Assembly (NCBI GenBank): GCA_003554865.1
Contig: PWHJ01000034.1
Location: 1 to 37,470 of the forward strand
Direction: 5' to 3'
DNA from: Bacteroidota bacterium
Lineage (GTDB): Bacteria; Bacteroidota; Bacteroidia; Bacteroidales; PUMT01
Length of the DNA: 37,470 nucleotides
Made by a program: the position numbers and the translations under genes. The first letter of the stretch is position 1. Each line of letters opens with the position of its first letter. This document shows, in pieces, positions 1-26,176 of this stretch. The notes under the pieces are model-generated. The model saw only the letters and a program-made list of their open reading frames with translations, had not been told where the DNA came from and did not search any database.

Positions 1-851
1 TTGATCGTAGCCTTACCTTTTGATACCTGAAGCTGGGTTTCCGGGGATGAACCGAAAAGCTTGAAATCCATATAATCAAAAAAGAAAAGGTATGGCGAAG
101 GGTTGATGGACCTGAGGGCCCTGTAAACATTGAATTCGTCTCCGTTAAACCTCCTGCTGAATTGCCTGGAAAAAACTATTTGCATAAGATCACCCTTTTT
201 GCAGTGTTCTATTCCTTTTGCTGCCATCTCCATATACTGACCGGGCGAGATATTGGTCTGTTCGTCCCCGTTAATACGGAAGGGGAAGGTGGCGGGATTG
301 CGGTTTGCAAGAAGGGAGAGCACCTTTTCGCTCTGAGGCGTATGTTTCCCGTCAAGGAATTCATGTATGGCCAGGGTGTCGTTGAAATGGTTGAAAGCTA
401 TCACCAGCTGGTAAAGGTCGTATTTTATAAGAGGAATGGGATCTTTGTCTTCATAGGGGTTCTGGATATTTACATTATCGAAATAGTTGACAGCATCGTA
501 TGATGTGTATCCGAAAATCGGGGATACAAAGCCCGGGGCGTTTTCTTCAGTGTTTTGGGCCGAGTTGAGGAACTTGTCCAGCAGCTTCACGGGGTGTCCT
601 ACACCTCTGAGCTTTATCCGCTCCGACACCTGCATATCCTTTCTTATAAGCGCCTTGTTATTGAGTATTTCTATGCCGGTAAGGGGTTTAAGGCATATAA
701 AGGAGAATGCTTCATGCCTTGAGCTGTAGTCGGTACACTCAAGTAAAAGAGCCTGCGGGAAGAAATCTCTCAGCCTGAGGTATATCCCCACAGGTGTAAA
801 GGTGTCTGATGGCAGGTGAGTTGTTGTTCTTTTCAGCTTTACCGTGTCCAT
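1..851 (-). CDS. trpE: Anthranilate synthase component I, 5' part (cut by window edge)
   Basis: This enzyme makes anthranilate from chorismate using glutamine-derived ammonia, the first committed step of tryptophan synthesis, in the cytoplasm with TrpG. About 283 codons are visible, roughly 60% of a usual TrpE; the chorismate-binding catalytic core lies past the left edge. Recognisable stretches are the N-terminal feedback-site region (LLEC, residues 36-39), FGYTSYDAV, GDLMQIVFSRQFSR and the INPSPYLFFF / FGSSPE block. The start at 851 is the first ATG after the leader terminator (about 30 nt away) and gives a family-like N-terminus. It is the first structural gene after a Trp-rich leader peptide and terminator, so regulation by attenuation is inferred. 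The feedback motif has Cys where enterobacterial enzymes have Ser (LLES). PabB is an alternative, but the Trp leader argues for TrpE. Confidence 0.94.
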   Translation of the reverse strand, partial: MDTVKLKRTTTHLPSDTFTPVGIYLRLRDFFPQALLLECTDYSSRHEAFSFICLKPLTGIEILNNKALIRKDMQVSERIKLRGVGHPVKLLDKFLNSAQNTEENAPGFVSPIFGYTSYDAVNYFDNVNIQNPYEDKDPIPLIKYDLYQLVIAFNHFNDTLAIHEFLDGKHTPQSEKVLSLLANRNPATFPFRINGDEQTNISPGQYMEMAAKGIEHCKKGDLMQIVFSRQFSRRFNGDEFNVYRALRSINPSPYLFFFDYMDFKLFGSSPETQLQVSKGKATI

Positions 852-881: not shown

Positions 882-913
882 AAAAAAAGCCCGCTTGTGT
901 GCCAAGCGGGCTT
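882..913 (-). terminator. Intrinsic terminator of the trp leader
   Basis: A perfect 10-bp stem (AAGCCCGCTT / AAGCGGGCTT, 904-913 with 887-896) with a 7-nt loop is followed by a run of U. It lies about 30 nt before the trpE start, in the right orientation to stop transcription before trpE. Confidence 0.92.
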
Positions 914-987
914 AGAATATTCTGTTTTTAAATCAGGGTTGCATTCACAGAAGGCCTGGCACGAACCGGGTATGTTCGTTGTGCCAG
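882..987 (-). promoter_or_regulatory. Transcription attenuator of the trp operon
   Basis: Three alternative pairings can be drawn in the minus-strand RNA. The 1:2 hairpin pairs CTGGCA plus CGAAC (982-987, 974-978) with GTTCG plus TGCCAG (962-966, 956-961), with a 3-nt bulge. The 2:3 antiterminator pairs GTGCCAGGC (954-962) with GCTTGGCAC (899-907): nine pairs, one of them G-U. The 3:4 terminator is at 887-913. The Trp codons overlap strand 1 and the last sense codons overlap strand 2. Stalling for lack of charged tRNA-Trp would free strand 2 to pair with strand 3 and allow read-through; unhindered translation to the stop would cover strand 2 and allow termination. The pairings are seen; the mechanism is inferred from the enterobacterial trp model. 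Confidence 0.88.
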
Positions 988-1019
988 CACCATGTATGAA
1001 TGTAAAATATATTGCTCAT
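945..1019 (-). CDS. trpL: trp operon leader peptide (24 aa, Trp-Cys-Trp)
   Basis: A 24-codon ORF runs from an ATG at 1019 to a TGA at 945-947. It has Trp codons at positions 10 and 12 (genomic 990-992 and 984-986), and ends Val-Pro-Gly-Leu-Leu. A purine-rich AAGGAAG lies about 8 nt before the ATG, which is unusual for this phylum and supports translation. The two rare Trp codons sit on the 5' arm of the first leader hairpin, and the last codons overlap its 3' arm, as expected if ribosome position selects between hairpins. The peptide itself probably has no function beyond being translated. Its size is below usual gene-calling limits. The assignment rests on codon content, hairpin geometry and the trpE gene directly downstream; expression is inferred. 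Confidence 0.88.
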   Translation of the reverse strand: MSNIFYIHTWCWHNEHTRFVPGLL

Positions 1020-1042
1020 AGGTTATGCTTCCTTTTGACTTG

Positions 1043-1050
1043 CAAATATA
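1043..1050 (-). promoter_or_regulatory. Candidate promoter -7 box for the trp leader
   Basis: TATATTTG matches the Bacteroidota -7 consensus TAnnTTTG exactly and lies 24 nt before the leader ATG. The -33 region is only T-rich, without a clear TTG. It sits 35 nt past the tilS stop. An A-run/T-run pair directly after tilS might be a weak terminator, so some read-through from tilS is possible. Confidence 0.65.
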
Positions 1051-1085: not shown

Positions 1086-2411
1086 TTATTCTTTTACCTC
1101 GGCCATATATACCCGGGAAGTATGGCCGGTTATCCTGAAGCGGTTGTCAATGCGGTGTCCCACAATCCAAACTATCTTGTCGCCCGATGCAAGTATCCAT
1201 ACTGATTCCTTTTCGAAAAGGGAGAACTTGTTATCGATGAAAAAATCACTTAACTTTTTTAAACCGCTCATGCCCAAAGGCTGAAAGTAATCACCCTGCT
1301 TCCATTTCCTCAAAATCAGGGGAAAATGCAACAACTGTGCATCAAGGCATGCAATATTGGGATCGCGGGGTATTTGAAAACCGGGATACATTTGAAAATT
1401 TGAGAATTCCATGTGCAGCGGATCCTTGATACTGCTTGTTTGCTCATCTATGTAGTAAAGATGACTTTCCCGGTTTTTCAGCGGGGCTATGTAGAGGTGA
1501 GTGCGGTCTTTCACAAGCCGGTGCGTGGGTGAGAAAAACTGCTTACCGGGCGGCCCCCCAAGGGACTCAATGATATCGGGAATCTGCAGTGAGGAAAAGT
1601 TCCACTTTTTCAGAAACTCATAAAGGTAAGCATGCAGAGGCTCCAGCATAAGCAATCCGGAAATGTTCAGTGCCTGCTGGCTGCCGGCTTCGGAGTATAT
1701 ACTGTGAAATTTTTCCTCAATTGCCCGGGTGTATATTTTTTCCGTATCCTTTAGTTTTTGGGTGTTTTCATGTACAGTATCAATAAAAGCGGGGTTGATT
1801 TTTTCCATTTCCGGAATGATACGGTGTCTTATACGGTTCCTGTCGTATTTGACCTCCCGGTTACTGCTGTCGGTTCGAAAGGGAATCTTTTCACTTGAGG
1901 CAAACTCTTCAATCTCTTCCCTTGAGGCAAAAAGGAGTGGTCTTACAACCTCCCTGCTTTTTGTTCCCATCCCGGTAAGTCCCCTGATACCGGTCCCCCT
2001 GCTTATGTTCAGCAAAAAGGTCTCTGCCAGGTCGTTTTTGTTGTGAGCTATGGCTACAACCCTGATTCCCTGCTGCTTTAAAAGAGATGAGAACCACTCG
2101 TACCTCAGCTCCCTTGCAGCCATCTGAAGTGATATGCCTTTGGTTTTGGCATGGTCGGATGTGTCGAATTTTTTGGTGAAAAACTCAACATTATTCTCCC
2201 TGCAGTATTCTTTTACAAACTCCTGGTCTTTGTCGGATTCTTCCCCCCGGAGTAAAAAATTGCAATGGGCTGCTACTGGCCTGAACCCTCCCTGAAGGAA
2301 AAGCTTCAGCATTACCATCGAGTCAACTCCTCCGCTGACGGCAAGAAGGACCTTTTCGCGTTTTGCGAAAAGTTTTTCCCTTTTTATAAAATCGATGAAT
2401 TTCTCCAGCAT
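1086..2411 (-). CDS. tilS: tRNA(Ile)-lysidine synthase
   Basis: TilS ligates lysine to the wobble cytidine of the CAU-anticodon tRNA-Ile, using ATP, so that it reads AUA instead of AUG. It is essential in most bacteria and cytoplasmic. The 441-residue length fits the long TilS form. The N-terminal PP-loop ATPase motif SGGVDS is at residues 26-31, HNKNDLAET is a conserved block of the synthetase domain, and the C-terminal RKWKQGDYFQPLGM segment is typical of the TilS C-terminal domain. The ATG at 2411 places the PP-loop at the usual distance. The gene lies 31 nt downstream of the M14 peptidase on the same strand, so co-transcription is possible, and the trp leader promoter starts just past its stop. 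Confidence 0.95.
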   Translation of the reverse strand: MLEKFIDFIKREKLFAKREKVLLAVSGGVDSMVMLKLFLQGGFRPVAAHCNFLLRGEESDKDQEFVKEYCRENNVEFFTKKFDTSDHAKTKGISLQMAARELRYEWFSSLLKQQGIRVVAIAHNKNDLAETFLLNISRGTGIRGLTGMGTKSREVVRPLLFASREEIEEFASSEKIPFRTDSSNREVKYDRNRIRHRIIPEMEKINPAFIDTVHENTQKLKDTEKIYTRAIEEKFHSIYSEAGSQQALNISGLLMLEPLHAYLYEFLKKWNFSSLQIPDIIESLGGPPGKQFFSPTHRLVKDRTHLYIAPLKNRESHLYYIDEQTSSIKDPLHMEFSNFQMYPGFQIPRDPNIACLDAQLLHFPLILRKWKQGDYFQPLGMSGLKKLSDFFIDNKFSLFEKESVWILASGDKIVWIVGHRIDNRFRITGHTSRVYMAEVKE

Positions 2412-2442: not shown

Positions 2443-4203
2443 TCATTCCATTTCAATGTTGCCTGTCTGTTTTATCCTTGCAACAGGATAACGCCTGTAG
2501 GTTTTCTCAAAGTAGGGTGAATTCTCATAAATAAAATTGTATTGTGCTCTTGCATTTTTTGCAAACTCTTCATCCAGGCTGCGCTTTCTTTGAAATTCCT
2601 CTTTCAGCTCAGGGTTGTTTTCAAGCAGCTGCTTTGCAATACTGTCAAAGTGTACGGGTGAATAATACTCTATACGGTTAAGTATGGGATCGAAAAAGTT
2701 CCACCGGAAAAAGGAGTCTGCACCCTGCGGCTCGAGGGTCTGAACAATATAGTTGTTGGCAGGCTGGTTCGTTTTAACTATATAGTCGCCTTTGTAATAG
2801 TCAATCTCTTGTATCTCTTCGCTCACCTCTATATCCGAATGGGGGTATCTTCCGCTGATGACCCTTGTGCTTGTTGTGTAATCGTTTATATAGTATACCC
2901 CGACCTTAAGGGTGGTGTCTCTTGCAAGGCGTTTCATTTCAACATTGGCAGCCTTAAGGCGATTTACAACTTCATCCCAACCCTGGGGAATTAAGTATGC
3001 CGCCGGTGCTTTTACCTGGCGGAGAGGCTTGTAGTGCTTGAAATATGGTATCTGTTTGGTGTATGGTTTCTCCCGGTCATAATAGCGCAGCTGTTGCCCG
3101 GTTACATCACTTGTTCTGGATCCTGTTTCATACCCCCTGAAAGTAATGGTATCATAACGTGTGGTATCCAGTTGCCACCGGAGAGTGTAAGTTGACTTGT
3201 TTTTTGTTTCTTTTCCGGCTTTTTCCCTTACCCTGCCTATTTCATTGTGATTGGCACCGGTGAAGGCGGTAACCGAGACAAGAAAATGATATGTTGACAA
3301 TACTCTCTCGTGGTAGGGTTTAAGCATGTGTGATTCGACCATGAAGCTGATTGTGTTGAAAAGGGATGTATATCCGCTCGAGTATCTTGGGTGGTCCATG
3401 AACCCGACAATGCCGTTACGGGGATCGCCCCTGTAAGATTGTACATAGGGTATCATCTCATAGCCGGTTTCCTCCATCATTTCGTAAAGCTCCGGGTTCA
3501 TCTCACCTTCCATGTAGGAGGCCACCGCGGGGTGCAATTTGCTTTGCTGTGTGGGGATAAGTGTTATCACATAAGGATAGTCGGCCCCGTTGGTTGTGTG
3601 TGTGTCAATAAAGATATCTGGCTGCCATTTGTTGAATATTTCATAAAAGGAGCGGGTGTTGCGGGTGTCCATTTTTATAAAGTCGCGGTTCAGGTCATAA
3701 TTCCGGGCATTGGCCCTGAAGCCCTGTTCTTCAGGACCTTTTTGATTGGCGCGGTGGTGAGGGCTCCGGTTTAAAAATCCCCCGATACTGTATACCGGAA
3801 TTATGCATATTACGGTATTGTCAAGGTGGCGGGCAAGGTTGTCACGGTTGTTGAGAATACCGTCGGCAAACTTTAAACTGGCATCCACGCCGTTGGGCTC
3901 TCCTGCATGTATGGCATTGTTTATCATAATTATGCGTTTTGAGGAGTTTTCAGGGGATTGTGGAGAAAAATCCCCGTTTGACGATATTACAAAAAGATGC
4001 AGGGGCTTTCCCGTATCTGTCTTCCCGTAAGTGATCAGTTCAGCTTTTTCGTGTTTGCCGGCCATGTATTCATACATGGAGATCACCTCACTGTAAGACG
4101 GCGTGCGGTTGTTCATGTAGTCGAGACTAACCTGTGCTGTCAGGCTAACTGTTCCCTGAAGCAATATCAGGGAGAAAACAATGGAAAGTGCTTTTTTGAT
4201 CAT
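2443..4203 (-). CDS. Exported M14-family zinc carboxypeptidase
   Basis: A 586-residue protein with an N-terminal signal peptide (basic start, hydrophobic stretch to about residue 22, likely cleavage after LTA). The M14 metal site is visible: H99 and E102 in HAGEPNG and H202 in DTHTTNG. NRDF near residue 172-175 corresponds to the substrate-binding Asn-Arg, and E290 in FMVESH is the likely catalytic Glu. The family cleaves C-terminal residues from peptides, or sometimes cell-wall peptides; the substrate here cannot be told. It acts outside the cytoplasm. The roughly 270-residue C-terminal part after the catalytic domain is unassigned. tilS follows after 31 nt, and the upstream gene ends with its own terminator. 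Confidence 0.9.
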   Translation of the reverse strand: MIKKALSIVFSLILLQGTVSLTAQVSLDYMNNRTPSYSEVISMYEYMAGKHEKAELITYGKTDTGKPLHLFVISSNGDFSPQSPENSSKRIIMINNAIHAGEPNGVDASLKFADGILNNRDNLARHLDNTVICIIPVYSIGGFLNRSPHHRANQKGPEEQGFRANARNYDLNRDFIKMDTRNTRSFYEIFNKWQPDIFIDTHTTNGADYPYVITLIPTQQSKLHPAVASYMEGEMNPELYEMMEETGYEMIPYVQSYRGDPRNGIVGFMDHPRYSSGYTSLFNTISFMVESHMLKPYHERVLSTYHFLVSVTAFTGANHNEIGRVREKAGKETKNKSTYTLRWQLDTTRYDTITFRGYETGSRTSDVTGQQLRYYDREKPYTKQIPYFKHYKPLRQVKAPAAYLIPQGWDEVVNRLKAANVEMKRLARDTTLKVGVYYINDYTTSTRVISGRYPHSDIEVSEEIQEIDYYKGDYIVKTNQPANNYIVQTLEPQGADSFFRWNFFDPILNRIEYYSPVHFDSIAKQLLENNPELKEEFQRKRSLDEEFAKNARAQYNFIYENSPYFEKTYRRYPVARIKQTGNIEME

Positions 4204-9738: not shown

Positions 9739-9825
9739 CGGAGAGAGAGGGATTCGAACCCCCGGACCCCAAAAGGGGTCAACGGTTTTCGAGACCGCCC
9801 CGTTCGACCGCTCCGGCATCTCTCC
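9739..9825 (-). tRNA. tRNA-Ser (anticodon CGA)
   Basis: This is an 87-nt class II tRNA. The acceptor stem GGAGAGA pairs with TCTCTCC and is followed by discriminator G; the 3' CCA is not encoded (next bases CAA). The anticodon arm GCGGT-CTCGAAA-ACCGT puts CGA at 9789-9791, reading UCG. A long variable arm (TTGACCCC...GGGGTC) and a T arm with GGTTCGAATCC complete the serine type. It lies 54 nt after the second tRNA-Ser gene on the same strand, and a terminator-like hairpin sits almost against its 5' end. Confidence 0.97.
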
Positions 9826-9879: not shown

Positions 9880-9966
9880 CGGAGAAAGAGGGATTCGAAC
9901 CCCCGGACCCCGTGAAGGGTCAACGGTTTTCAAGACCGCCGCATTCGACCACTCTGCCATTTCTCC
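9880..9966 (-). tRNA. tRNA-Ser (anticodon TGA)
   Basis: This is an 87-nt class II tRNA. Acceptor stem GGAGAAA pairs with TTTCTCC, discriminator G, CCA not encoded. The anticodon arm GCGGT-CTTGAAA-ACCGT places TGA at 9930-9932, reading UCA and, with modification, other UCN codons. The long variable arm (TTGACCCTTCACGGGGTC) and T arm are nearly identical to those of the neighbouring tRNA-Ser(CGA), suggesting an old tandem duplication with anticodon change. A perfect TAnnTTTG box lies 6 nt upstream. Confidence 0.97.
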
Positions 9967-10266: not shown

Positions 10267-10539
10267 ATGAACAAGGCGCAACTTATTGACTCAATTGCAA
10301 GGAACGCAAACCTGACAAAAGCGGACGCTAAAAAGGCTATTGACGCTTTTGTTGAAACAACAACAGATTCTTTAAGAAAAGGTGAAAGGGTTGCTCTGGT
10401 GGGCTTTGGCTCATTCTCCCTTTCAAAAAGAAACGCAAGGACCGGAAGGAATCCCCAAACCGGTAAACCTATTACTATTGCTGCCAAGAATGTTGTAAAA
10501 TTTAAGCCCGGCAGCGAACTCAGCAGTATGGTGCAATAA
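10267..10539 (+). CDS. HU-family DNA-binding protein
   Basis: A 90-residue histone-like protein that binds and bends DNA as a dimer and packs the nucleoid. The N-terminal helical part begins MNKAQLIDSIA; the central signature GFGSFSLSKRNARTGRNPQTG (about residues 47-67) and the Pro-containing DNA-binding arm (RNPQTGKPI) followed by KNVVKFKPG match HU rather than IHF. The length is exactly that of the family. It is monocistronic, with a strong promoter and its own terminator, in keeping with high expression. Confidence 0.96.
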   Translation: MNKAQLIDSIARNANLTKADAKKAIDAFVETTTDSLRKGERVALVGFGSFSLSKRNARTGRNPQTGKPITIAAKNVVKFKPGSELSSMVQ

Positions 10540-26035: not shown

Positions 26036-26098
26036 ATGTACACACTTGCTGCACATACGGGTCATTTTCATCATCATCACCATACCGGAATGAAATGA
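26036..26098 (+). CDS. hisL: his operon leader peptide (20 aa, seven His)
   Basis: An ORF of 20 codons begins at the ATG at 26036 and stops at TGA 26096-26098. His is at positions 7, 10 and 12-16, so five consecutive His codons and seven in total out of 20. AAAGAGAAAAGAT before the ATG is purine rich. The peptide is the sensor of a histidine attenuator: the ribosome would stall on the His run when charged tRNA-His is scarce. It lies between a promoter and a terminator upstream of hisG, and its codons overlap strand 1 of the leader RNA. It is shorter than usual gene callers allow. Composition alone makes chance unlikely. Confidence 0.93.
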   Translation: MYTLAAHTGHFHHHHHTGMK

Positions 26099-26176
26099 TA
26101 CCCCTGTGCAGAATATATTGAGCTTAAAAAAACGAACTAAAAAAAGGCCTGCAAATTCTGCAGGTCTTTTTTTTTT
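26049..26176 (+). promoter_or_regulatory. Transcription attenuator of the his operon
   Basis: Strand 1, CTGCACA plus GGGT (26049-26055, 26059-26062), pairs with strand 2, ACCC plus TGTGCAG (26100-26103, 26105-26111), enclosing the His run. Strand 2 can instead pair through TGCAGAAT (26107-26114) with ATTCTGCA (26155-26162), an 8-bp antiterminator that would break the terminator stem at 26146-26166. A ribosome stalled on the His codons covers strand 1, so the antiterminator forms and the operon is read; otherwise the terminator forms. Pairings are seen; the mechanism follows the enterobacterial his model. Confidence 0.9.
26146..26176 (+). terminator. Intrinsic terminator of the his leader
   Basis: GGCCTGCA (26146-26153) pairs with TGCAGGTC (26159-26166), one G-U pair, 5-nt loop, extended by A-T pairs, followed by ten T (26167-26176). 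It ends 14 nt before the hisG start. Confidence 0.95.

Follow-up and report, generated by a model that had tools for sequence, protein, structure and literature searches.

The stretch of DNA analysed here (37,470 nucleotides, hereafter the window) belongs to a Bacteroidota genome with a 3.2-Mb assembly in 243 contigs. At its start lies trpE, truncated at base 1 where the contig ends, whose protein matches TIGR00564 across residues 15–281. The 234-nt gap between trpE and its upstream neighbour tilS contains, on the minus strand, the whole leader region, the parts of which are listed below from upstream to downstream (the promoter box, the Shine-Dalgarno-like motif and the U-tract as read from the sequence only; the arms of the outer 1:2 stem and strand 1 from folding and pair counts).

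1086–2411, minus strand: tilS, upstream neighbour on the same strand as trpE
1043–1050, minus strand: predicted leader promoter box, TATATTTG
1028–1033, minus strand: AGGAAG, Shine-Dalgarno-like, ahead of the leader ATG
945–1019, minus strand: leader peptide ORF MSNIFYIHTWCWHNEHTRFVPGLL, 24 codons, Trp at codons 10 and 12
995–1002, minus strand: outer 5′ arm of hairpin 1:2, pairing with 949–942
974–991, minus strand: strand 1 (inner), starting on Trp codon 10
953–966, minus strand: strand 2 region, of which 962–954 pairs with strand 1 or strand 3
942–949, minus strand: outer 3′ arm of hairpin 1:2
899–907, minus strand: strand 3, antiterminator partner of 962–954, made up of the upper terminator 5′ arm and its loop
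887–913, minus strand: 3:4 terminator hairpin, 11 bp, arms 913–903 and 897–887, 5-nt loop
882–886, minus strand: terminator U-tract past the stem
3–851, minus strand: trpE, anthranilate synthase component I, the presumed regulated gene

The same order of tilS, leader and trpE, then followed by two ORFs resembling trpG and trpD, was read by eye in the same genus. The original prediction held that a 24-codon leader with Trp at codons 10 and 12 precedes trpE, and such an ORF is indeed present at 1019–945, running from an ATG at 1019 to a UGA stop (947–945) on the minus strand and carrying Trp10 at 992–990, Cys11 (UGC) at 989–987 and Trp12 at 986–984. Upstream of it, TATATTTG at 1050–1043 matches TAnnTTTG, the consensus of the –7 promoter box in Bacteroidota.

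All elements of the enterobacterial scheme that had been claimed for this locus were found on the minus strand. Strand 2 (962–954, GUGCCAGGC) coincides with leader codons 20–22, i.e., the last leader codons overlap it as proposed, and its pairing with GCUUGGCAC at 907–899 yields the predicted 9-bp 2:3 antiterminator. The 3:4 terminator was also recovered, albeit with 11 bp instead of 10 bp, while the 1:2 hairpin proved to have the inner stem starting from the Trp codons but to extend further than thought, with an extra outer stem of 8 bp (1002–995/949–942). The U's run to 882 and trpE starts from 851, in agreement with the anticipated spacing of about 30 nt.

Folding of 882–1025 returned a single long 1:2 hairpin plus the terminator (–47.5 kcal/mol, z = –5.55), and the terminator fold had a z of –5.61. 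When the 234-nt gap was shuffled 5000 times with dinucleotide composition preserved, a terminator arose in six shuffles, a W(x)W leader ahead of it in none, and none also gave a 9-bp 2:3 helix. Scanning the window and the loci then collected for this signature revealed a few other sites (i.e., window position 10382 on the plus strand, L020 at 975 and L024 at 2481); since these are plainly no trp leaders, the signature is rare, yet not exclusive to real leaders.

We take this element to attenuate transcription of the trp operon by way of a translating ribosome, with a probability of roughly 0.93, and a mechanism of the enterobacterial kind appears well supported by comparison with relatives; the promoter, the stalling, cellular termination and a Trp response are what we infer from it. 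Transcription would begin upstream of the leader, with a ribosome following RNA polymerase and translating the 24 codons. When charged tRNA-Trp is ample, the ribosome would reach the UGA and cover strand 2, upon which 3:4 would pair and transcription would terminate before trpE. With charged tRNA-Trp in short supply, the ribosome would stall at codon 10 or 12, barring strand 1 from 1:2 pairing, and strand 2 could then capture the emerging strand 3 while polymerase continues into trpE. If the leader were left untranslated, the 1:2 hairpin would retain strand 2 and the terminator would form.

The partition function of the nascent RNA, made to just past the terminator loop and with the ribosome footprint masked (at assumed footprint sizes), was computed for each of these states. 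Upstream pairing of the terminator 5′ arm had a probability of 0.62 when the ribosome was stalled at the final Trp codon, of 0.01 when it was at the stop and of 0.01 in ribosome-free RNA; the same script gave 0.69, 0.00 and 0.13, respectively, for E. coli K-12 trpL. At equilibrium, the complete leader favored the terminator in every state (0.97–0.98 for the window and 0.98–0.99 for E. coli trpL). Since the terminator wins at equilibrium even with a stalled ribosome (0.97, against 0.98 for E. coli trpL), antitermination must be kinetic.

Conservation of the element was scrutinized in an alignment (A1) of 14 close leaders, i.e., that of the window and those of 13 relatives. In the 2:3 helix, 97.6% of the cells were paired and three of the nine pairs had changed on both sides, while slid controls reached at most 40.0% and 3 of 500 shuffles (which ignore kinship) matched the percentage. 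For the 3:4 helix, 100% of the lettered cells were paired, with double changes in 4 of 11 pairs, slid controls of up to 66.7% and none of 500 shuffles, kinship again being ignored. The whole 1:2 hairpin was 67.4% paired (0 of 500 shuffles, kinship ignored), and its inner, outer and apical parts 82.9%, 58.3% and 46.4%, respectively. In the window itself, strand 2 and strand 3 have changed together from U-A to C-G (columns 60 and 135), with a matching C in strand 4 for the terminator (columns 135 and 141). The three stems for which the original prediction had proposed a covariation check are therefore all kept, as mutually exclusive helices, by paired substitutions, the outer 1:2 stem being the weaker part. 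It had also named lack of conservation in close relatives as grounds for rejection, and both the Trp codons and the stems turned out to be conserved. Together with the nascent-RNA pattern, which is as in E. coli trpL, the conserved leader, near-adjacent Trp codons and three helices uphold the mechanism that had been put forward.

The middle codon of the Trp-Cys-Trp stretch deserves separate attention, since a UGC at codon 11, between both Trp codons, might mean that the leader senses cysteine in addition to tryptophan. In all 13 close relatives, however, the same leader position reads Trp-Trp-Trp (UGG UGG UGG), with Trp at the position of codon 11, against UGG UGC UGG in the window. Moreover, the C of codon 11 and a G replacing A in strand 2 are changes of the window only (columns 30 and 62) that pair with each other in 1:2, so that the additional C-G pair accounts structurally for the step from UGG to UGC; in 2:3, the pairing with U is kept by this strand 2 G. 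To judge from this alignment, Trp-Cys-Trp is the species' own local variant of Trp-Trp-Trp, and the simplest reading would be that a spare Trp codon was lost and 1:2 pairing gained. The UGC could also be an assembly error. Cysteine sensing seems very unlikely. In two leaders of the same class from other orders (L144 and L145), Trp-Leu-Trp replaces the Trp run, so a Trp-x-Trp arrangement is not unique to the window.

The hairpin might alternatively be merely the terminator of tilS, which lies upstream on the same strand and whose transcription it would stop too, with the short ORF arising by chance. This is highly improbable given that conservation extends to the leader ORF, to its Trp codons and to strand 2, that strand 2 covaries with strand 3, that none of the 5000 shuffles reproduced the arrangement, and that in other relatives such a leader is followed by trpB or a TrpB-like gene. 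An attenuator that binds a protein (TRAP-like) or a tRNA (T-box) and has no ribosome as sensor is scarcely credible, as Rfam revealed no T-box in the window at gathering thresholds and the conserved part is a translated Trp run.

Attenuation sensed by a translating ribosome also agrees with covariance models from which the window had been left out or in which it was approached from afar. Model R1 (13 relatives, window excluded) scored the site at 50.6 bits (E of 6.7e-10), and model R2, built on 20 more distant, order-level leaders, ranked the window site first with 38.6 bits (E of 1.1e-7). Of 393 genomes of the order, 106 had an R1 match at an E of 0.01 or less, a number that is not to be read as a count of attenuators because several inspected loci lacked a convincing Trp leader (L113, L119, L120, L124 and L125, among the 24 inspected loci L104–L127). 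RNAalifold on the 20 order-level leaders predicted the terminator as the sole structure.

The next-best site of R1 in the window (16.3 bits) was the leader of a predicted his attenuator, in which MYTLAAHTGHFHHHHHTGMK (26036–26098, plus strand) is followed by a terminator at about 26143–26169, directly before hisG (26179). Of 30 relative loci inspected by eye, 24 have short ORFs with His runs ahead of hisG, with two in series in three genomes (G054, G028 and G047). PMC9723704 mentions a flavobacterial hisG 5′ element without Rfam hits.

A second trp leader was found in the window's own assembly (G000:C75, 120–266, minus strand; locus L105), with peptide MTTQFRMYNFWWWHNGINHCVKHCLPPGDI and 81.6 bits with R1. 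The start of a group II intron (RF02001) lies immediately past its terminator, at the contig end. It may stem from contamination (4.3%) or represent another trp locus of this genome.

Among 60 related genomes, TrpE was matched in 33 at an E of 1e-20 or less, and 32 of these carried a short ORF in which two to four Trp codons lie near-adjacent, followed by a hairpin, ahead of trpE or of a cluster starting with another trp gene. Twenty-eight of the 32 were recognized by script, three (G001, G002 and G006) by further methods and one (G033) by eye; the terminator script had initially missed the three because their U-tracts are interrupted, and a second method found their hairpins. The remaining relative (G007) has only 101 nt between trpE and the contig end. 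Within family f1, the leader was present in 12 of 13 trpE-bearing genomes. Two further arrangements were observed, i.e., serial Trp-run leaders upstream of trpE with a terminator each (G021, L016 at 2591–2695 and 2452–2508, minus strand), and a Trp-run leader plus terminator before a TrpB-like PLP enzyme (NF009057) instead of trpE (L045, L047 and L049, from G054, G059 and G028, respectively).

In a sample of the phylum, 163 of 198 genomes had a TrpE match, and upstream stretches were taken from 20 genomes of other orders within the class and 20 of other classes, chosen by stepping down the listed matches. A W-leader with terminator was present in 19 of the 20 former and 11 of the 20 latter, against 0/20 and 0/20 in the reverse-strand control. 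A plasmid search with a TrpE fragment yielded nothing of use.

The locus displays what is generally expected of a trp attenuator, i.e., an ORF with near-adjacent Trp codons, predicted to be translated, before a trp gene, an intrinsic terminator between leader and first gene, and exclusive helices with covariation. Attenuators in some Bacteroidetes/Chlorobi were reportedly already noted by Vitreschak in 2004. The suggestion that a trp leader of this form would be new to the phylum does not hold, as it is already covered by Rfam family RF01692 ('Bacteroidete tryptophan peptide leader RNA'; Weinberg 2010) and by PMC6414381. Weinberg 2010 lists Bacteroid-trp as a cis-regulatory motif of Bacteroidetes, PMC6414381 (2019, on Flavobacterium) describes its structure as E. 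coli-like and places it ahead of the F. psychrophilum trp operon, and PMC9723704 (a 2021 flavobacterial transcriptome) gives strong indications that amino-acid operons are preceded by leader-peptide attenuation. The F. psychrophilum attenuators of the latter study share the phylum and the position of such clues before amino-acid operons with the window, but the 5′ elements named in its accessible part are those of pheA and hisG, not trp. In the literature searched on leader peptides and attenuation, the accessible portions contained no experimentally shown trp attenuator in Bacteroidetes. The attenuator is real, but its kind is already known in Bacteroidota.

Like E. coli trpL, the element has three hairpins that exclude one another, a strand 1 that opens with two Trp codons, a strand 2 that pairs with strand 3 and a similar nascent-folding behaviour, but its peptide counts 24 instead of 14 codons with Trp-Cys-Trp instead of Trp-Trp, an extra outer 1:2 stem is present, and strand 2 lies inside the leader ORF. 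Comparison with the Rfam Trp leader model, also proposed as a check, turned out negative in that RF00513 scored the window at 27.4 bits, below its cut-off of 41 (E of 0.00087 in a 251-base search), and had no match in a search of the window's own genome. At gathering thresholds, the Rfam scan of the window listed two tRNAs only, these being a pair of genes close together (9739–9825 and 9880–9966, minus strand), and a permissive scan added RF00513 below its cut-off and many chance families.

With RF01692, the window shares the phylum, the genes, the Trp-run leader ahead of trp genes, the long 1:2 hairpin reaching from ahead of the Trp codons to beyond the stop, and the terminator 5′ arm just downstream; the RF01692 model, in contrast, ends at strand 3, without the antiterminator. 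The window stays below the cut-off score of this family, being unlisted between 840 and 1090 at E up to 10, and its own genome was also without a match. Nevertheless, homology can be traced via intermediates, as the 20 leaders of R2, which ranks the window site first, include those of three genomes above the RF01692 cut-off. Only 3 of 60 relatives pass that gathering cut-off (49 bits), which is therefore narrow, and the matches above it in scanned loci (L034 and L035) overlap the Trp-run leader. At E up to 10, RF01692 gave many off-target matches, and the loci L052–L054, L056, L058, L060, L062 and L063 collected from its matches were no trp leaders upon inspection.

The window differs from most order-level leaders in the register of its antiterminator, with strand 2 pairing with strand 3 and the loop rather than with the loop and strand 4. 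The 14 close leaders, drawn from the window's family plus two allied genomes, all have a best strand-2 helix that involves the upper terminator 5′ arm, of which three to five bases are used, plus the loop. Elsewhere in the order, most leaders have strand 2 at the stop codon of the leader or close to it, with the loop and upper 3′ arm as its target; among the 20 order-level leaders, 17 avoid the 5′ arm and use the loop and/or the 3′ arm (the exceptions being L019, L026 and L028). In alignment A3, 75.0% of the cells of the loop plus strand 4 helix were paired (2 of 500 shuffles reached this, and slid controls at most 48.8%), next to 90.6% for the terminator. When the register was tested against single-base shuffles of the segment upstream, the best helix was at chance in several of these 20 leaders (L017, 114 of 300; L018, 147; L020, 255; L026, 219). 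Given these chance-level single-sequence helices, it remains a tentative lead, at somewhat below even odds, that the Bacteroidota hold one old trp attenuator lineage with a rewired antiterminator, in which the window's family is in the enterobacterial 2:3 register. The difference between both registers is possibly the part that is new.

The window is a well-supported, unannotated example of an attenuator whose curated model finds few cases, so that such leaders stay unannotated. Among the sampled Bacteroidota, trp leader-peptide attenuation is widespread, including in other orders and some other classes. If the lineage with a rewired antiterminator is real, it would offer a natural series in which one switch alters its exclusive pairing while sensor and output are kept, and the comparison yields an alignment for testing how an attenuator shifts its antiterminator register.
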